A DNA stretch of 20,586 nt from a virus (IMGVR_UViG_3300002053_000075:1-20586); one strand, 5' to 3'. Positions 7,387 through 20,586 are shown, numbered from the stretch's first letter. Made by a program: numbers and translations. Notes: generated from the sequence alone by a model not told the origin.

Positions 7387-7418
7387 AATACATTCTCTGA
7401 AGGAGGTGAAACAGTATG
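7387..7418 (+). promoter_or_regulatory. Duplicated translation leader, copy 2 (major capsid gene)
   Basis: This 32-base leader carries AATACATTC, TCTG, AAGGAGGTGA (7400-7409) and ATG 7416. It differs from copy 1 at 6668-6699 at only four positions, all in spacer bases. Confidence 0.6.
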
Positions 7419-8741
7419 CCACGTGGAGCAAGTGAAATACCAACTCTAAGATTGGAAGTTCTACAGGACTTTATTACAAGGTTCAAAGCGGCACCCAATC
7501 TTATGTTTACCAATCTCTTCCCCGGTACTCGTAACGCTGAATCGGACACCATTAAGTGGGAGTCCCAGCGAGGTGGAAGAGGTATGATTCCGTTTGTGCC
7601 CCCGGGAGCTCCTGCGCCCGTATCGGCACCGCATGGGATTGCTCAACATCAAGCTACCGCCGCGTATTGGAAAGAAAAGCGGTACTTTGATGAGGAATTT
7701 TTGAACAATCTTCGCAAGCCGGGCACAGATTCAGCGTATCAGTCTGCCGCAGATACGTTGTCGGATAACTTAGCAGACATTGTCAATCGAGCCAACCGCA
7801 GGAAAGAGTGGATGTTCTCGAATATGTTCATCAACAATGGCTTCTCTTACATGGTCAAAGGTGGGTACATGGTCGACATCGACTACGGTATCCCGACCGA
7901 CCATCGCGTCTCTCTGACTTCTGCTTACTACTGGGATACCGGTGGTAGCAAGGACATTATGGGTGACGTTAAAGACGGCAAGCGAAAGATTGCTGAGGCT
8001 AATGGTGGCGTCGTAGACGTTGCTATCTGTAATAGTCAAGTCCTTGACATGATAGGCAAAGACAGTTCAATACGTTCTTTGTTGCAGACCAATGCCTTTC
8101 ATGATGGTTCGTTGATGGCAGGTCCTGGTATAGACGCCCTCGCGCTGGTCAATGCCAAAGTTCTTGGCACTTTGCTTGATATCAAAAATTTCATCATCTA
8201 TGACGAGATGTATGAGGTCAAAGCAGAGCTTACCGCCGGTGTTACGGGTGGGTCCAGTACTTGGGTTCAAGTGAACGATGCGTCCGACTTCGACGCTTAT
8301 GAAAAATTGACCATTTGGGACAGAAGTTCTCCCGATACTTATGAGTCCAGATACATTCTCTCGGTCAATAAGTTCACCAACCAAGTACAGATCGAGTATC
8401 CCTTTACCAACAGTTACACCGCTGGTGAGGACTACGTTACCATGCAGAGGTACTATGTGCCTGGTGACAAATTCATCATGATGGCTTCGAGTGTTGAGGG
8501 AACACCTATTTCCCGATATATTCAAGCGCCGTTCGGCTTAGGCCGACATTGGGGTCTTTATACCGATAAGAAAGACGAATGGGATCCCGAAGGTACGTGG
8601 ATCAGAGTGCAGGACAAAGGTTTGCCCGTTCTGTATCATACCGATGCGATTTACACCATCGATGTGACCGCAAGAACCGGTGAGTCTGCAACCAGCACGA
8701 CCACGACCACAAGTTCAACATCTACAACGACCTCTACTTAA
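7416..8741 (+). CDS. Major capsid protein, lambda gpE-like, with Thr/Ser C-terminal tail
   Basis: 441 residues; lambda gpE has about 340. Residues 1-265 and 347-420 follow the gpE-type HK97-fold pattern: an N-terminal helix, the IKWESQRGGRGMIPFVPPGAPAP segment split by a Gly/Pro-rich loop, an E-loop-like charged stretch around 80-135 and an AICNSQVLDMI spine region. Residues about 268-346 are an inserted small beta domain like that in the decoration protein. Residues 424-441 form a tail of only Ser and Thr (apart from one Ala) that would project from the last capsid strand. All four Thr codons are used in the tail. The protein forms the icosahedral shell around the scaffold and portal. A perfect ribosome-binding site gives high expression. 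Confidence 0.92.
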   Translation: MPRGASEIPTLRLEVLQDFITRFKAAPNLMFTNLFPGTRNAESDTIKWESQRGGRGMIPFVPPGAPAPVSAPHGIAQHQATAAYWKEKRYFDEEFLNNLRKPGTDSAYQSAADTLSDNLADIVNRANRRKEWMFSNMFINNGFSYMVKGGYMVDIDYGIPTDHRVSLTSAYYWDTGGSKDIMGDVKDGKRKIAEANGGVVDVAICNSQVLDMIGKDSSIRSLLQTNAFHDGSLMAGPGIDALALVNAKVLGTLLDIKNFIIYDEMYEVKAELTAGVTGGSSTWVQVNDASDFDAYEKLTIWDRSSPDTYESRYILSVNKFTNQVQIEYPFTNSYTAGEDYVTMQRYYVPGDKFIMMASSVEGTPISRYIQAPFGLGRHWGLYTDKKDEWDPEGTWIRVQDKGLPVLYHTDAIYTIDVTARTGESATSTTTTTSSTSTTTST

Positions 8742-8757
8742 TAGGGAGGGATAATCG

Positions 8758-9114
8758 ATGAAAATCGAACAAGTCAGATTAAAAAAGACGCTTAAGGCTG
8801 GCAAGATTGTGTGGGTAGAGGGATCGTACTTTCCTAACAAAGAGTACCCCTCTATCCCACAGGACCTCTTGCTTGAAGTAGCACTTGGAACGGGAACGGT
8901 TGAAGTTACCAAACAATCTGAGGAAAAGGTGATCACCTTGCCTAAGAAAGCTGCAACCGCTCCTGATCTGACATCAACATCGAGTGACGTTTCGACTTCC
9001 GTCACCGATAGAGCATCGTTAGAAGCGGCTTTGGTTGAAGAAAAACGAGTGATCGAAGCTGTAGAGAAGCCCAAAATAGTAAAGAGGAAGTCAAAACTTG
9101 TTAGGAGATCGTAA
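8758..9114 (+). CDS. Small head-associated protein with basic C terminus
   Basis: 118 residues, starting at ATG 8758 after GGGAGGG. Residues 1-50 (MKIEQVRLKKTL..GKIVWVEGSYFP) look like the small beta-barrel found in short phage proteins encoded right after capsid genes (the pattern in which a Gly-rich strand is followed by a Pro-led helix). Residues 55-85 are Thr/Ser/Pro-rich and probably disordered. Residues 86-105 are a charged helix, and the end is KRKSKLVRRS, matching the tails of the small terminase and portal. Its stop overlaps the next ATG (TAATG), and its final Arg codons form that gene's AGGAGA ribosome-binding site. It sits where lambda has FI. The exact role is unknown. Confidence 0.7.
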   Translation: MKIEQVRLKKTLKAGKIVWVEGSYFPNKEYPSIPQDLLLEVALGTGTVEVTKQSEEKVITLPKKAATAPDLTSTSSDVSTSVTDRASLEAALVEEKRVIEAVEKPKIVKRKSKLVRRS

Positions 9115-9566
9115 TGACACGACAAGAGTTGCTTTTGAAGCTGGAGAAGGAGTTCAAGGGATCGCATAAGTACTTGGTAAAAGAGGATTATGAAAATGCC
9201 TCTAATGATGCAATCAATGAGTTTGAGACTTCATATCCTGTTTCAGGTCAACTGCTTGAGTACTGGATTAAGAAACGTGCGAAGCGTCATATATTCTATT
9301 ATCTTCTGACTGAGAGTGCCCATAAGTTTAAATTCGAGCAGATAAACTTACAACATAGGTTTGATCATTACAGCGAGTTGGTCAAAATGGAAGACGAAGC
9401 GTTTGCTGAGTTCATGGAAGAGCATCCTGAACTATTCACAGACGCGGAGAGCTACAAACTGTTCGGAACAAAGATTGACGCAGGTTTTGCTTATACCGAA
9501 ACAGGTGTAGATATAACCTACCGTAAAGACCAGCTTGTCGAGTTTGATCCCAAAGAGAGTGCATAA
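9114..9566 (+). CDS. Probable head-tail connector (adaptor) protein
   Basis: 150 residues, almost entirely predicted helical: LLLKLEKEFK at the start, then NDAINEFETSYP, then LLEYWIKKRAKRHIFYYLLTESAHKF. The last third contains an amphipathic helix and a short beta region (GFAYTETGVDITY). Size, helical content and position behind the capsid genes fit the adaptor ring that binds below the portal (the gp6/gp15-like group). It starts at ATG 9114 in a TAATG overlap with the preceding gene. No decisive motif, so the assignment is by context. Confidence 0.55.
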   Translation: MTRQELLLKLEKEFKGSHKYLVKEDYENASNDAINEFETSYPVSGQLLEYWIKKRAKRHIFYYLLTESAHKFKFEQINLQHRFDHYSELVKMEDEAFAEFMEEHPELFTDAESYKLFGTKIDAGFAYTETGVDITYRKDQLVEFDPKESA

Positions 9567-10255
9567 TGACTATCGGTCCTGATATTGAAGAGGTTTTAGA
9601 TGAAGTAGGAACTTCATTTACGATCCTTCGAGATAGCGGAAATGTAACTGGGGAGAAAACCTATTACAAATCGAATAGTCAAGTAACGAAGCCTTTCATT
9701 CGCGAGTTCTTTCTTGAGGCTTGGTTCTCCTATAATACCGAGGCAGTAGGGGGCGATTACGTTCAATTCAATACGACAGGTGACATCTACCTTGTAATGA
9801 ATAGAACTCCTCAGATGTTCGAGGATGCGATAATTAAGTGGGACGTAGTTCTCTACAAATGCAACGTTGTTATAGACATTTTGAGACCCGTCGAAAGCGA
9901 CGGTTGGGATGCAAACTACCAGAAACCTACTACATGGCAATACATTCAAGAGCAAAGATATGCTTTGATCACAACCCCCCTGTATGGCCATGATCTTGCT
10001 ACAGACGAGGAGCTTGGTTACTTAGGTCTTGAAGTTCATGAGATGTATGCTCCTTTGTCTTTCGATATACAAACTCTCGATAGAATCCGACTGACCTCTT
10101 TAGAGTATTATCGTGTTGAAACAATTAAACCGAGACGATATGAAGGGGTCAATGTTTTTGAAATCGGTGAGGATACGAGAGTTTCACAGTCCACTACGAC
10201 TACCACAACCACATCAACAACCTCTTCTTCGTCCACGACCTCGACAACGGTGTAA
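9566..10255 (+). CDS. Neck/head-closure-type protein with Thr/Ser C-terminal tail
   Basis: 229 residues, start in a TAATG overlap. Residues 1-205 look beta-rich with repeated short strands (GGDYVQFNTTGDIYLVMN, WDVVLYKCNV, DRIRLTSLEYYRVETIKP), as in head-closure and neck proteins. Such proteins plug the portal exit and provide a surface for the tail. A phrase of the form 'D-R-I-x-L...Y-Y-R-V-E-T-I-K-P' is typical of proteins whose barrel binds the previous ring. The final 24 residues are almost all Thr and Ser. The codons there are mixed, so the tail is kept at the protein level, not by DNA slippage. No gene-specific motif is seen and the role is inferred from position. Confidence 0.55.
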   Translation: MTIGPDIEEVLDEVGTSFTILRDSGNVTGEKTYYKSNSQVTKPFIREFFLEAWFSYNTEAVGGDYVQFNTTGDIYLVMNRTPQMFEDAIIKWDVVLYKCNVVIDILRPVESDGWDANYQKPTTWQYIQEQRYALITTPLYGHDLATDEELGYLGLEVHEMYAPLSFDIQTLDRIRLTSLEYYRVETIKPRRYEGVNVFEIGEDTRVSQSTTTTTTTSTTSSSSTTSTTV

Positions 10256-10257
10256 GC

Positions 10258-10692
10258 ATGTTCGATACTGTAGTTGGCGGTGGAAACCGCTTGTTGGATT
10301 TGTTTATCGTTCCCAGCAAACGGGTATTCGATGAAAACAAAGCCCGTCGTGCGGTCGAAAGTTCGATGTCTATCATCAATCAATATTGGCAGGCAAAAGA
10401 TTGGCAACAGATCAACATAACAATGAAAACCTCTTTATACTACATGGTGGTGTATGACAACGAGTGGTTTGATCCAAGATTGGTGACTGATCTGAAAACG
10501 GCGCTGATTTATTCGCGCGAGATCGATATGCTTGTCGTTTTTACAGCGGAGGGTGGTGGAGAGGTGCGATTTCAGCCTCGAGTATTTAGCAGTAAGCATT
10601 TGTTGAATGTCGATGAAAAAGCGCCTCTTCCCCATAATCACAGAGAGTTGAAGTTTGAAAAACTCATAGGTGGATGGCTGTACGTTGATTAA
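10258..10692 (+). CDS. Conserved-looking neck-region protein, function unknown
   Basis: 144 residues, starting at ATG 10258 two bases after the previous stop. There is no clear ribosome-binding site, so translation is probably coupled. The N-terminal half is helical (KARRAVESSMSIINQYWQ); the C-terminal half alternates hydrophobic strands (MLVVFTAEGGGEVRF) and ends KLIGGWLYVD. No cysteines, no signal peptide and no membrane segment. It lies in the head-tail joining cluster and may be a small connector or completion factor. I do not recognise the family. Confidence 0.65.
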   Translation: MFDTVVGGGNRLLDLFIVPSKRVFDENKARRAVESSMSIINQYWQAKDWQQINITMKTSLYYMVVYDNEWFDPRLVTDLKTALIYSREIDMLVVFTAEGGGEVRFQPRVFSSKHLLNVDEKAPLPHNHRELKFEKLIGGWLYVD

Positions 10693-11230
10693 TCTTGAAA
10701 TCAAATTTGATCAAGCTGATGTTCGTAGGGTGCTGCGAGCATTTAGAAGGATCGAGCGCGCGGTCGATAGAGAGAAGAAGGAACTTCCCTACCGATGTGC
10801 GGTTGAGTATGTCAATCTTCTGAGGGGAAACATAATGACTCAGAAGTTTGCAGGAGGGTATGCCCCCTATCATCCTCGATATGCGAATTGGAAAGCTCAG
10901 TACTTCGCGTCTTCAGGTTATTGGGTGATGCGTGGAACAGTTGTCAACTCTCTAACTGTCTACCGAGACAGACATCCTCAGAGATGGGTGGGTGGTATTC
11001 GTCCTAATGCTGGCATGGTTCCTGGTAGTTCTTGGTTCGGACCGCCAGGTAGAGGTAAACCTAAAAGTATTAATATGTATGCGTATGTAAACGAGTACGG
11101 TGGCAATTACGGGGGTGCAAATCATCCCGCACGACCAGTTTTTAGACCCACAAAGAAAGAGTACGAAAGAGGTGGGTTTCCGAAAAGAGGTAGAGAATCT
11201 TTAGACATAATCGGGAGGAGCTGGAGATGA
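10685..11230 (+). CDS. Tail completion/neck protein, HK97 gp10-like
   Basis: About 181 residues. The frame is open from a GTG at 10670 (186 residues), but TTG 10685 gives the natural N terminus (INLEIKFDQADVRRVLRAF) and has AGGTGG upstream, at a rather long spacing; the start is uncertain. The pattern is typical of the gp10/lambda Z group: an N-terminal helix, CAVEYVNLLRGNIMTQKFAGGYAPYHPRY, then W...SGYWVMRGTVVNSLTVY, a Gly/Pro loop, MYAYVNEYGG and a closing ARPVFRPTKKEYERGG before a final helix. Proteins of this group join the tail to the neck or complete the tail. Its 3' end overlaps the next start by four bases (ATGA). Confidence 0.75.
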   Translation: MINLEIKFDQADVRRVLRAFRRIERAVDREKKELPYRCAVEYVNLLRGNIMTQKFAGGYAPYHPRYANWKAQYFASSGYWVMRGTVVNSLTVYRDRHPQRWVGGIRPNAGMVPGSSWFGPPGRGKPKSINMYAYVNEYGGNYGGANHPARPVFRPTKKEYERGGFPKRGRESLDIIGRSWR

Positions 11231-11622
11231 CAAACGAACCTGTAGCATTTAATCCTGAACACAGTCCTCAAGACTTTATTGAGGCGATTGATCGAAAGTT
11301 CAAAGAGTTGAGAGGAAAAGAAGATCGACTGAGTTTAAAGTGGGGACATTTCTCACGAGGAATGAACGTCGAAATCAGAAAATATCTTGAAGTCCTACCC
11401 GAGGAGACACAGCTTCGAGAACAATATCATTATACACAGGTCTATTGGACTTGCAAGAGTAGACTCCTTGATCTTTACATGCGCCACAAGCTCTTGGGAA
11501 AGGGTAGAATCAGACGCGAAAACAAAATGGCGAATGACATTAAAAATATGATTTTGACAGGGGAGTTCTTGCGTCCTGTCAAAGAAAATGATATCATAGC
11601 GCAAGTGTTGGGAAAATTATAA
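11227..11622 (+). CDS. Small charged helical protein, function unknown
   Basis: 131 residues, ATG in an ATGA overlap with the previous stop and GGGAGGAG just upstream. It is highly charged and mostly helical: AIDRKFKELRGKEDRLSLKW, then a mid-section with WTCKSRLLDLYMRHKLL and a Lys/Arg-rich helix (RIRRENKMANDIKNM). There is one Cys and no domain I recognise. Its place among neck genes and coupling on both sides argue that it is a real gene, probably a minor structural or assembly factor. Confidence 0.7.
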   Translation: MTNEPVAFNPEHSPQDFIEAIDRKFKELRGKEDRLSLKWGHFSRGMNVEIRKYLEVLPEETQLREQYHYTQVYWTCKSRLLDLYMRHKLLGKGRIRRENKMANDIKNMILTGEFLRPVKENDIIAQVLGKL

Positions 11623-11837
11623 TGGAAGTGTTAGAAATATATCCAAAAGACTGGTTTGTCAGGATAGAACTCTCACTCGATCAGATTCAGAAAATCCTTG
11701 ACTTTCTTGATAATTGTACCTTTGAGGGCAGTTCTGAATCCAGAGATTTAGTCGCGGCTAAAGATTACGTAGTCGGAGACTTTTTTGCTAAATTGGATGC
11801 GTTGTCTGAAGACATCATAAGGAGAAGGGGAATCTGA
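11622..11837 (+). CDS. 71-residue acidic protein, function unknown
   Basis: It begins in a TAATG overlap and ends in a TGATG overlap with its neighbours, which strongly supports it as a real gene despite its size. The sequence MEVLEIYPKDWFVRIELSLDQI starts with beta strands and continues with an amphipathic helix (DQIQKILDFLDNC) and a second helix (FFAKLDALSEDIIRRRG). Net negative with a basic end. It is unrecognised and may be a small partner of the tail terminator encoded next. Confidence 0.7.
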   Translation: MEVLEIYPKDWFVRIELSLDQIQKILDFLDNCTFEGSSESRDLVAAKDYVVGDFFAKLDALSEDIIRRRGI

Positions 11838-12310
11838 TGGCTCTCGATCCTACAGCAAGAGAAGCAAATTTCAAGGATAGCATAAAGAAGTACATTGTCG
11901 ATAATTTATGGACGACAGATAACATTCCCGTAAGTTTCGATCCTTCTTTAGCGACACCGAAAGTTCCGAACAATGTTGAACTCAAAAAGTGGATCAATGT
12001 TCGTTTCGGTGATTTTTATCGGGATGATCTCAGCAGAGCGAATCTCGAAATTCGGTGCTGCACACGTCAAGATAATGAAGGGTTCTCACTCGCCCAGCTT
12101 TGTGATCGTGTTATAGGGTATTTGACAACGACAACGGGTGACGGAATCAAGCGTATCACTTTTTATCGCAGTTATCCTTCACCGACAGCTTGGGAGGTCA
12201 TAGGTGGGATAGTCGTGCAAGATATCATTGAATCAGGGGTCTACCGAGCGCAAGATGAAACAACTTACAAAGTCTTGAATATCGTCTTGCGTTTTGCGTC
12301 TAAAATTTAA
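11837..12310 (+). CDS. Probable tail terminator protein
   Basis: 157 residues, ATG in a TGATG overlap after GGAGAAGGGG. It starts with a helix (REANFKDSIKKYIVDNL), then has beta strands (WINVRFGDF, LEIRCCTRQ), the helix GFSLAQLCDRVIGYL, a strand/hairpin (IKRITFYRSY) and a last strand pair (YKVLNIVLRFASKI). That helix-strand-helix-strand order, with ring-forming size, matches the lambda gpU/tail terminator group, which caps the tube and stops its growth. It sits just before the tube gene, as in lambda (U before V). No unique motif is visible; position gives most of the support. Confidence 0.65.
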   Translation: MALDPTAREANFKDSIKKYIVDNLWTTDNIPVSFDPSLATPKVPNNVELKKWINVRFGDFYRDDLSRANLEIRCCTRQDNEGFSLAQLCDRVIGYLTTTTGDGIKRITFYRSYPSPTAWEVIGGIVVQDIIESGVYRAQDETTYKVLNIVLRFASKI

Positions 12311-12376
12311 AACTCGACGCTCCAGGTCGCGCTCATTGAACGATCTTTTTAAAGTAATACTAAGTATAGGGTAAAT
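12311..12376. other. Short gap before the second zinc-finger gene
   Basis: 66 bases without a gene, one of only two sizeable gaps inside 842-18029. There is a weak TTGAAC at 12336-12341 but no good -10 at a proper distance. A 17-base stretch at 12355-12371 begins TAATAC and ends TATAGGG. It looks like a phage-polymerase promoter but is three bases short of the T7 form. A promoter is possible and not established. Confidence 0.3.
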
Positions 12377-12655
12377 ATGTCTCGTTCGAAAAAACTCTTT
12401 TATAGATGCGAATTATGTGGAAAAATTCTGATCGAACGTAGACCTAATGGATTGTGGTATTTCGTTTTCGGTAAGAACAAGAAATTTGTTCCCGTTGAAA
12501 TGCACATTCACGGCAATATCAAAATGCGTTGTCTCAGAAGGTCTTGTAGAAGGGATCATGAGACACACTGGAATGTCTTTAACTTTTTTCCACAAGCTAA
12601 AGATCCAATCGATGACTCAGTCGAATCTCTACCGGCAGAGATTAATTCAAAATAA
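12377..12655 (+). CDS. Small cysteine-rich (zinc-finger-like) protein
   Basis: 92 residues, starting at ATG 12377 behind AGGG. C11/C14 form a CxxC knuckle (CELCG) and C52/C57 form CLRRSC, with His43/His45 and His61/His64 nearby as further possible ligands. The centre is aromatic and basic (GLWYFVFGKNKKF), and the C terminus is acidic. It resembles the idea of a Com-like RNA-binding finger (phage Mu Com activates translation of mom), but I cannot show homology. It interrupts the otherwise standard terminator-tube order and has a gap in front of it like the other zinc-ribbon gene at 3510. It could be a moron or a translational regulator. Confidence 0.7.
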   Translation: MSRSKKLFYRCELCGKILIERRPNGLWYFVFGKNKKFVPVEMHIHGNIKMRCLRRSCRRDHETHWNVFNFFPQAKDPIDDSVESLPAEINSK

Positions 12656-12656
12656 G

Positions 12657-12675
12657 AAGGAGGTGAAGTAATATG
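12657..12675 (+). promoter_or_regulatory. Perfect ribosome-binding site of the tail tube gene
   Basis: AAGGAGGTGA at 12657-12666, one base after the upstream stop, sits six bases before ATG 12673. It is the fourth copy of this decamer in the window. It predicts high translation of a protein needed in a few hundred copies. Confidence 0.8.
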
Positions 12676-13314
12676 CCAAGAACTGGTCCAACTACGAAAG
12701 ATACCACGACAGTCCCATTGGGTCTTGCACAGATTAGAATTGGTGAGTCTGCCGCTCTTATTGGTCAGATACGCCCCATTCTTTCGGCGTCTGATTCTAT
12801 CGGAGCTCTTGCAAACACGAAGTTAACCTTGAATCAAGAGTTTTATAAACTTGAATCGGGGTATCCTTTGCTTGAAGATGCTGTGTTTCCGTTGCGTGAG
12901 TCTGCTATGCTCGAATGTTCCTTTAAAGAGTTGACCCCCGCAAATATGGCTCTTGCAAAGGGTAAAGATCCTGCTTCGAGTGATTACGCCGCTGCCCATA
13001 CGGGTGTTTTAAAATTGGGGGATTTGTCGACCCCTGTGTATGTCAGAATGGAAGCTGTATATACCTTTCCTGATGGCACGAATACCATGACAATTATCTT
13101 TCCACGAGCGCAGGTCACATCTGCCCCTGAAGTTGATTTTCAACAGGAAGAGGTGGCTGCTGTTCCAATCAGCATTGAAGCCAAACGTGCTGACAGTGAA
13201 ATGTCTGGTGGACATGTCGCTTGGGACTCTCAGCCCCTTGGAAGAATCTATTGGGATGATGGTTCTGGGACAACCATGACTACCACGAGTTCAACTACAA
13301 CCACGACTGCGTAA
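12673..13314 (+). CDS. Major tail (tube) protein with Thr/Ser C-terminal tail
   Basis: 213 residues. The fold pattern is that of siphovirus tube proteins: a flexible N terminus (MPRTGPTTKDTTTVP), a strand/loop TLNQEFYKLESGYPLLEDAVFPLRE split by prolines, the family-like FKELTPANMALAKGKDP helix, VYVRMEAVYTFPDGTNTMTIIFPRAQV, and the closing VPISIEAKRAD strand. It polymerises as rings around the tape measure to form the tail tube. Residues 200-213 are almost only Thr and Ser, a tail shared in character with the capsid and neck proteins. Position between the terminator region and the tail chaperones matches lambda V. Confidence 0.88.
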   Translation: MPRTGPTTKDTTTVPLGLAQIRIGESAALIGQIRPILSASDSIGALANTKLTLNQEFYKLESGYPLLEDAVFPLRESAMLECSFKELTPANMALAKGKDPASSDYAAAHTGVLKLGDLSTPVYVRMEAVYTFPDGTNTMTIIFPRAQVTSAPEVDFQQEEVAAVPISIEAKRADSEMSGGHVAWDSQPLGRIYWDDGSGTTMTTTSSTTTTTA

Positions 13315-18031: not shown

Positions 18032-20586
18032 ATGGCATTATCTCTTGATGGAACTTTACAAACTCGTCTCAACGGAATTGTACGTGAACCGATAGCACGT
18101 ATTATATCAAGTTCATTTGATGCGACTATTCCGTTTGATGGTAATGATTTTGGCTACAGTGAGACTTCAGAGCTTAATCCCAACATTATATCGCTGAGTA
18201 CAGGAGAACTCGTCTGTATAAGTCAGAAGCCAAGTACTTCGTATGGTTATAGATTCTTGAAAACAGACGAGGATCGTAATCAATGGTCTACGAGTGTCTT
18301 TACAGCGGGAAGTTACACGCCCAAAGCTTTCGATATATGTGAGAAACCAGATGGAAACATTGCCTTGCTTTTTGCATATAATTGGAGTTTGACTGATGCG
18401 GTCAGAGTTACCACGATAAGCTCAGATGGTGTGTATTCAGGTACTTCCTATTCCGTACATATCGTTTATTCGAATTATGATTATACGTATGAGCCTTGCA
18501 TTATTTACAATTCGAACATAAGTAAATACCAGGTCTTTGTGCCTTACAGAGATTATTCTGCAGGACCCGCTTATTACATTTATAAGTATGAATCAACGAA
18601 TCTTAGTTCTTGGACAGGACCGGTAGATATCACCCCTGCAAGTTTGGGAAATGCTGCGAAATACTCACGGTGTGAAGCTCTCCTGTTGTCTGACGATGAT
18701 ATTGCGTTGACCTTTGATTATGTCACAGAGACAGACGTAGCATCGACCTTTGAGACAACGAATGTTTATTATATGGTCTCTCAGGATGATGGGGCTACAT
18801 GGTCAACTCCTACAGCCGTGACCAGTTATACAGGGGTTGGTAAAGCTGCGCGAAACCCATCTTTGGTTGAGAAAACTACAGGATCTATCTATTCCGTATT
18901 CCATGACAGAGTGACGTTTGTTAAAATCGATAGTAGCACGCCCAATATCATACACGATGGCTGTGTAGATATGGAAATGATCCACATGTATGACAGTAAA
19001 ATTTATGTGAGTGGTGCATATCCGGGTGCTGGTAATAAAACTCTCTGTGGCGTGTGGGTCATTGATCCTTCTGATATGAGCATTGAAAAGAATTATACGA
19101 GTACGACAACTCCCGGGTATAGTTCAATGTTCAAACTTAATCATAATTGGCCTCGAACATGTACTGCTGATGGGAAATATCTCGCTCGATTTATTACGGG
19201 TCCAGCTCAAGTCGGTGCGGTAATGCTTGTTACTTATGATGGGGTCACTGATCAAGTAACCCAATATATTATAGGCACTGGAGGGGGTGCGGGTGATATA
19301 CCTTCTTATAGTTTAGATGAAAATGTAGCGATTACCCAAAGTGCAGGAACAGGGGGATTCGGGTTACAGCATATTTGGATAGATGCAGCGACCGATAGAC
19401 TGTATTTGTATTTTTGGAATGGGTACTACTGGACTCCATATGGTATGTATGGTTACATTGATCTGACAGAAACAGCGGATCCTGTAACTGGCTATTACAC
19501 ATTCCATGAAATATGGAGAAAAAGTTCTCTTAGTCATAGTACCCAATATGGTTTGGGCGGGCGTTTTCATTTAGGTTTTTCGTATAGTAAATATTGCACA
19601 GAAAATGGACTCGTTGTCTTGATGGAAAATGAGGCTAATGGTTCTGTCATGGTAATGGATACCGCAACGGGGGTTATTCAGTTCTGTGCGAATTATAATT
19701 CAAACAAGAAGATGCCCTATAACGGGTTGCTTTCTGCTTATACTTACGATGGTAAAATTTATGGCTCATTCGGTTACACGTCCTCTTATGATCAGGGAGC
19801 TTGGAGGGGTTTATGGATATATGACATGGTCACGACTTCAAAAGCGACAGTCAGACCCGGATATGCGACCAAAAATCAGTACACGTTTTATGACTACGAT
19901 TTCGCTGATATAGGAAATGGTTATATTTGGATTGCGGGTTATGATGGCGCGCTTCGATATAGTGTGGGCTCACAATACTTTGAGATCTGGGATGAGAATA
20001 ATATTCCGGGCTTTGACATGGGACTTTCCAGTGCTTGGTGTCATGGGATAGTGTATGATCCAGTAACTGAGGACGTTTTTGTGACTTCAAACAATAGTTA
20101 TGGTAACCCATGGGCGGGTCTAAGACGCTTCAGTATCGAAGGGGATTACTATCGAGGTCAATACCTTGTAGGGTTAAAAGCTGGAACAAGTCTTGGTTTA
20201 GGAAGTCAAGCAAATTTTACTTATGGCCTTTATGAGAGGGATATAAGTGTTACTGTCGATGAAGATGATTACCTTTGGGCTGTTTGGGATCACGTCGATA
20301 GAATAGACGATGATAGAGAAATTTGGTGGGATCACGATCTGTCAGAGATCAATGTATCAGATAACATGGTCGATTCAATCACGATATCTTGGGATATAGA
20401 GATACCGGGAGAACTCAGATTCAGTCTTGCTAATGGACACCTCTATGATCAACAAAATTATCTTTCAAGTTTGTCATACGTATTTAGGAGAGGACGTAAA
20501 GTGTCTGTTCAACTCGGTGAGAATATTTCCGATGTTCCTTATTGGGTGGATCAGGGAACTTTCATCGTTGAAGAAGCAAAGCTTCG
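18032..20586 (+). CDS. Large tail-tip/receptor-binding protein with beta-propeller (3' end outside window)
   Basis: Open from ATG 18032 to the window end (851 codons, no stop), so it is incomplete at its C terminus. Residues 1-35 look like a tail-docking strand (IVREPIARIISSSFDATIPF). Residues about 40-765 are made of repeated blades: a sialidase-type Asp-box at 250-257 (SQDDGATW), a degenerate one at 77-85 (KTDEDRNQW), then Tyr/Gly-rich blades of the form (D-x-K-I-Y-V-x-G) around 320 and 575. Residues about 768-851 (VDSITISWDIEIPGELRFSL, then FRRGRKVSVQLG, then GTFIVEEAKL) resemble a structural hub domain found in tip proteins. This suggests a propeller placed between docking and hub parts, probably binding surface glycans. 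Sialidase activity is not implied: no catalytic set is visible. It starts two bases after the previous stop. Confidence 0.8.
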   Translation, partial: MALSLDGTLQTRLNGIVREPIARIISSSFDATIPFDGNDFGYSETSELNPNIISLSTGELVCISQKPSTSYGYRFLKTDEDRNQWSTSVFTAGSYTPKAFDICEKPDGNIALLFAYNWSLTDAVRVTTISSDGVYSGTSYSVHIVYSNYDYTYEPCIIYNSNISKYQVFVPYRDYSAGPAYYIYKYESTNLSSWTGPVDITPASLGNAAKYSRCEALLLSDDDIALTFDYVTETDVASTFETTNVYYMVSQDDGATWSTPTAVTSYTGVGKAARNPSLVEKTTGSIYSVFHDRVTFVKIDSSTPNIIHDGCVDMEMIHMYDSKIYVSGAYPGAGNKTLCGVWVIDPSDMSIEKNYTSTTTPGYSSMFKLNHNWPRTCTADGKYLARFITGPAQVGAVMLVTYDGVTDQVTQYIIGTGGGAGDIPSYSLDENVAITQSAGTGGFGLQHIWIDAATDRLYLYFWNGYYWTPYGMYGYIDLTETADPVTGYYTFHEIWRKSSLSHSTQYGLGGRFHLGFSYSKYCTENGLVVLMENEANGSVMVMDTATGVIQFCANYNSNKKMPYNGLLSAYTYDGKIYGSFGYTSSYDQGAWRGLWIYDMVTTSKATVRPGYATKNQYTFYDYDFADIGNGYIWIAGYDGALRYSVGSQYFEIWDENNIPGFDMGLSSAWCHGIVYDPVTEDVFVTSNNSYGNPWAGLRRFSIEGDYYRGQYLVGLKAGTSLGLGSQANFTYGLYERDISVTVDEDDYLWAVWDHVDRIDDDREIWWDHDLSEINVSDNMVDSITISWDIEIPGELRFSLANGHLYDQQNYLSSLSYVFRRGRKVSVQLGENISDVPYWVDQGTFIVEEAKL

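Follow-up and report, generated by a model that had tools for sequence, protein, structure and literature searches.

Why should three unrelated virion proteins of one phage end in stretches of almost nothing but threonine and serine (T/S)? The question is raised by a 20,586-base record from IMG/VR (hereafter the window), a single contig of an uncultured phage that ends at position 20586 and carries a siphovirus-like late module. Genes in this module code for a terminase, a probable portal, a capsid, connectors, a tail tube, a tape measure, and a distal tail protein. The portal is termed probable because it was assigned by position.

Threonine/serine tails on three virion proteins

The major capsid protein (441 aa; 7416–8741, + strand) is a member of the phage capsid E family (Phage_cap_E, PF03864, E = 1.4e-31; phrog_29, E = 3.4e-46), and the tail tube, or major tail protein (213 aa; 12673–13314, + strand), matches phrog_117 (E = 1.7e-4). 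The product of the ORF at 9566–10255 (229 aa, + strand) had been called a neck protein in a sequence-only reading of the window. Its AlphaFold model (pLDDT 79) was matched by Foldseek to phage head-tail connectors (the SPP1 gp15/gp16 complex, T4 gp13/14, and the neck of cyanophage Pam3) with a probability of ~1.00. The name is therefore right, and the protein is described here as a stopper-like head-tail connector. A capsid E protein, a stopper, and a major tail protein are unrelated to each other, as had been claimed. Distant homologs of the tail tube (L031–L033) are ~90 residues longer (293–303 aa), suggesting an inserted domain.

The capsid tail has 16 T/S residues followed by a stop codon (8691–8738, + strand; ...GESA-TSTTTTTSSTSTTTST). 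The stopper tail has 20, followed by a valine and a stop (10190–10249, + strand; ...SQ-STTTTTTTSTTSSSSTTSTTV), and the tail-tube tail has 13 residues, 12 T/S and one methionine, followed by an alanine and a stop (13270–13308, + strand; ...GSG-TTMTTTSSTTTTTA). Almost pure T/S tails on the capsid, neck, and tail tube are thus confirmed, and the lengths originally given for them (18, 24, and 14 residues) were slightly generous. No T/S run exceeded 7 residues in 500 rounds of shuffling of all window proteins, so the observed tails are far beyond chance.

Threonine and serine codons are mixed within all three tails. The capsid tails of the window and of relatives L004, L008, and L034 have an identical peptide, under which 6–12 of 20 codons differ synonymously and none differ non-synonymously. 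An unchanged peptide with synonymous-only codon change indicates selection on the peptide and not a slipping DNA repeat, in agreement with the sequence-only reading. A translational frameshift signal at the repeats was considered and rejected, given the clean stops that end the tails and the next genes, which have their own ATG.

Conservation was examined in 33 tail-tube relatives retrieved from IMG/VR. Tail tubes more than ~65% identical to that of the window carry a T/S tail, and more distant ones stop at about the position where the tail would start. Capsid and connector tails are split among the relatives in the same way, with the capsid tail occurring at the same position in all tailed relatives and missing from tailless relatives. 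All three tails are found on the same three genes in tailed relatives, and none of the three is found in tailless relatives. This holds even where connectors are divergent: L007 has a connector that is only 38.5% identical, yet has all three tails, and L027, at 39%, has none. Because they are gained or missing together, the three tails amount to a single character. The length of the Thr-rich run differs among relatives. Two capsid homologs (L010, 3–710, and L011, 3972–5441) have a tail of ~56 residues with STTSSTHS/STASTT-like repeats, far longer than elsewhere.

Two observations had been named in advance as counting against a dedicated role for the tails, namely their absence from close relatives and an equal presence on non-virion proteins. 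Every close relative is tailed. ORFs with T/S runs in three long contigs (seven in G002, 67 kb; three of 125 in G005, 83 kb; six in G009, 54 kb) are confined to structural and fiber parts, as judged by position and homology, and in the fiber proteins T/S blocks are also placed between folded domains. Tails on the same genes in relatives and T/S ORFs in structural and fiber parts support the proposal that several parts of the virion are decorated.

A glycan cassette downstream of the tail genes

No modifying enzyme is visible in the window, as previously stated, because the contig stops 7.3 kb past the tail tube. A search of the remaining genome for a glycosyltransferase or kinase had been suggested, and glycosyltransferases were found in relatives G002, G005, and G009. 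All three carry a cassette 10–22 kb downstream of the tail tube, with its start at 10–20 kb, a distance that reaches beyond the window end at 20586. The cassette in G002 (24055–32470) encodes two Sulfotransfer_2 proteins, a GT2 (24832–25881), a GT-A-like protein, two methyltransferases, two GT4-type enzymes, a second GT2, and a radical SAM protein. Homologs of the GT2, both GT4-type enzymes, one methyltransferase, the GT-A-like protein, and the small GT2 occur in all three contigs, and sulfotransferases occur in the cassettes of some relatives only. The radical SAM gene (30234–31214 in G002; L054:10235–11215, − strand) is present in only a few other loci. G001, with a capsid and tail tube 84–87% identical to those of the window, likewise stops before the expected place of the cassette. 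Judging from these relatives, the window's own phage would carry the cassette beyond the contig end.

Relatives were surveyed for joint loss of tails and enzymes, as had been suggested. A GT4 profile identified matches in 4/4 tailed relatives with contigs long enough to reach the cassette and in 0/15 tailless relatives, including contigs of 50–90 kb. Generic GT2 genes (PF00535) also occur in five tailless relatives, indicating that the tails go with this particular cassette rather than with just any glycosyltransferase. GT2 presence was rejected as a marker of the system for the same reason, and the specific GT4 was used.

Mucin-type O-glycosylation in animals is started on Ser/Thr by polypeptide GalNAc-transferases, and the cassette GT2 resembles these enzymes. 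GalNAc-T10 was the top match in a profile search (E = 2.3e-7). A D-x-H motif (D135/H137) and G239-G240-E241 are invariant in 11/11 cassette GT2 members and align with DSH and WGGE of GalNAc-T10; the WGGEN motif is present only in part because its Trp is not conserved in the cassette GT2. The AlphaFold model (pLDDT 88, pTM 0.88) was compared to the PDB, and the best 50 matches were all polypeptide GalNAc-transferases (E from 8.5e-16, TM 0.56–0.70). The best match among predicted viral proteins, an uncultured Caudovirales protein, was weaker (3.5e-13). Likeness to the mucin-type O-glycosylation of CAZy family GT27 thus extends to T/S-rich acceptor stretches and to a GT2 with what is predicted to be the same fold, along with the DxH and GGE(N) motifs. 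In contrast to GT27, the cassette GT2 is phage encoded and only ~14% identical to GalNAc-transferases in sequence, and no C-terminal ricin-type lectin domain was found in its members (302–349 aa), in which Pfam identifies GT2-type domains only.

Distribution of the cassette and of T/S-rich proteins

We searched IMG/VR for GT4 homologs and identified at least 105, of which 80 were kept as loci. T/S-rich ORFs are present in 58/80 GT4 loci and in 0/34 control loci, which were chosen by random 15-mer and are shorter on average than the GT4 loci. Since the loci are counted as independent but are not fully so, the fairer figure comes from clustering GT4 at 60% identity, with T/S-rich ORFs in 27/37 clusters compared to 0/34 random loci (Fisher, ~1e-11). 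A T/S gene occurs within 4.3 kb of GT4 in 53/80 loci, and as T/S-rich fiber linkers adjoin the cassette, the association could partly reflect glycosyltransferases located near fiber genes. Whole-contig scans identified T/S tracts in 7/25 GT4 contigs whose fetched flanks had none, and the pattern (WCN)12 was not found in any of 28 control contigs scanned whole. By the filters used, T/S runs are lacking in some GT4 contigs, including one of 98 kb.

A reverse search using ten Thr codons followed by a stop yielded 54 loci, in which the tails are borne by tail tubes of other types and by capsid-like and baseplate-like proteins (names from reading of the sequences). Among contigs of at least 75 kb, GT4 occurs in 4/4 with poly-Thr tails compared to 0/11 random contigs. 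Within the close GT4 group, the cassette GT2 is present in 31/45 loci and the second GT4 in 26/45. Other cassette enzymes are absent from random loci, and some cassette members are missing from many GT4 loci.

Distant GT4 homologs (L131–L158, ~25% identity) have small T/S-rich ORFs within ~1 kb of GT4 in many loci. Examples are 131–143 aa in length with ~80–106 residues in T/S blocks, and they are followed by proteins of ~90 aa with T/S C-termini. The small ORFs perhaps encode dedicated mucin-like proteins. The T/S DNA pattern matches a 277-kb IMG/VR contig (G056; L109) at least 100 times, with overlaps, and the matches listed fall within its first 27 kb; by these matches the contig appears to come from a large phage in which T/S-rich proteins are numerous. 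A GT4-like match in G311 was rejected as a distant homolog amid ordinary bacterial genes with no cassette.

Independent cases were identified in bacterial genomes. In a contig from a Deltaproteobacteria MAG (a GTDB record, L252), the cassette adjoins a tail module of another kind, one of whose proteins has a T/S tail. Another genome of the same phylum (G261) has a 390-kb contig with a prophage-like region (contig C2, 353929–379388; L258–L260) that contains a GT4, a methyltransferase-like gene, a GT2, and unrelated structural genes. Here, Thr clusters (TTTT blocks) spaced by acidic residues (TTTTEEETTTTEDE...) form the ends of a tail-region protein and of what is probably a decoration protein, indicating that a tail need not be pure T/S and that Thr clusters may suffice.

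A tblastn search (E up to 1e-5) matched GT4 to none of the 50,697 INPHARED phage records, so the system, if real, would have escaped notice in isolates. No match to the capsid was found in INPHARED, and the cassette GT2 had one weak match, in Tunturi_4 (PP885687.1, 1567–2565). This cultured Tunturiibacter phage has a glycosyltransferase gene between the terminase and portal and no T/S tails by our filter.

Cytoplasmic O-glycosylation in bacteria uses transferases that act on Ser/Thr of flagellins and serine-rich adhesins. By analogy, the cassette enzymes would work in the cytoplasm and modify Ser/Thr of structural proteins that are exposed on a surface, with the difference that in this case the acceptors belong to the virion. 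When the cassette enzymes were used in profile searches of NCBIfam and the PDB, the flagellin and serine-rich adhesin transferases were not returned. A search of the open-access literature for poly-threonine, threonine-rich, or mucin-like phage proteins returned nothing relevant, which is weak evidence of absence.

A closer precedent comes from mycobacteriophages Che8, Corndog, and Myrna, where glycans on the C-termini of the capsid and tail tube are attributed to phage-encoded glycosyltransferases in the passages of PMC12619734 and PMC12363180 that cite Freeman et al. 2023. As in the mycobacteriophages so described, genomes of the window's relatives (G002, G005, G009, and others) encode glycosyltransferases, and the capsid and tail-tube C-termini are candidate acceptors. 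Compared to the same descriptions, the present phages differ in having a tailed neck protein, tailed fibers in relatives, and other enzyme families. Che8 has no T/S tails (its capsid, stopper, and major tail protein have 5, 0, and 3 T/S, respectively, among their final 30 residues), and its gp108–110 have no similarity to any of the six cassette profiles (E > 0.06). This points to a known kind of glycosylation with different acceptors and enzymes. The suggestion of an undescribed system therefore stands with regard to the enzymes and T/S tails and falls with regard to glycans on capsid and tail-tube C-termini, which, going by PMC12619734, had already been reported.

A probable glycan coat and its alternatives

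With sugar-attaching enzymes located near the tails in relatives, one of them GalNAc-transferase-like, the particle is probably sugar coated. We consider it likely that the T/S tails are acceptors for phage-encoded, mucin-like O-glycosylation. Among the uses listed in the sequence-only reading, O-glycosylation is favored by the enzymes found beyond the window in relatives and by their co-occurrence with T/S proteins across unrelated phages. We infer that the cassette enzymes act on the tails, and we propose the following order and sugars on the same basis. During infection, the phage would produce the glycosyltransferase cassette. The GT2-type, polypeptide GalNAc-transferase-like enzyme may add a first sugar to Ser/Thr of the flexible tails, which the GT4-type and other GT-A enzymes would extend. 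Methyltransferases, plus sulfotransferases in some phages, may then modify the glycan. The result would be a hydrated, possibly charged glycan brush covering the capsid, neck, and tail tube, as well as the fibers in relatives. The most plausible benefit is a hydrated coat that would limit aggregation and non-productive adsorption. Shielding may be a further benefit, and surface adhesion could be an alternative to a hydrated coat.

Three non-homologous proteins are either all tailed or all tailless, which makes it unlikely that the tails are unmodified, flexible, hydrophilic spacers and that the glycosyltransferases modify something else, such as a host surface polysaccharide. Many phages do direct glycosyltransferases at host surface polysaccharide, and T/S blocks separate folded domains in the fiber proteins of relatives. 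However, the association with GT4 is specific (27/37 clusters and none in controls), the GT2 is predicted to fold like transferases whose acceptors are proteins, and some tailless relatives carry other GT2 genes without GT4.

Protein O-glycosylation is common in bacteria and the window contig has no cassette, so the tails might instead be glycosylated mainly by a general O-glycosylation system of the host, with the phage cassette tailoring the product or doing another job. This is improbable because tails and phage cassette co-occur in unrelated phages and one of the cassette enzymes is GalNAc-transferase-like. Tail composition alone would also suit Ser/Thr phosphorylation and a charged coat, another of the uses first listed, but the option is without support and very improbable: PF00069 (Pkinase) has matches in 0/10 contigs with tails or cassette, and in the window tails T/S are not flanked by a kinase motif, whether acidic or basic. 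Least probable is a slippage-prone (ACN)n repeat with no function at the protein level, which would fit the variable length of the Thr-rich run among relatives but is contradicted by the synonymous changes under an identical peptide, the mixed codons, and the position of the runs, in frame at the C-terminal ends of virion proteins.

Beyond the reading of the tails as acceptors for O-glycosylation, we tentatively propose a transferable module, which we hold with less than even confidence. It would consist of a GalNAc-transferase-like initiator, GT4 extenders, and sulfo and methyl tailoring enzymes, with T/S or Thr-cluster/Glu tails on many non-homologous virion proteins. Tails and enzymes would evolve as one tag-and-writer system in an uncultured phage family, at least some members of which occur in bacteria assigned to Deltaproteobacteria. 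If true, this would be a portable system that paints whole particles with sugar and to which any virion protein could be recruited by the addition of a T/S tail. It would include a family of phage enzymes similar to those that initiate mucin glycosylation and would explain a recurrent odd trait of metagenomic phage proteins. The purpose of virion glycosylation could then be tested outside mammals, where immune evasion is ruled out as the reason.
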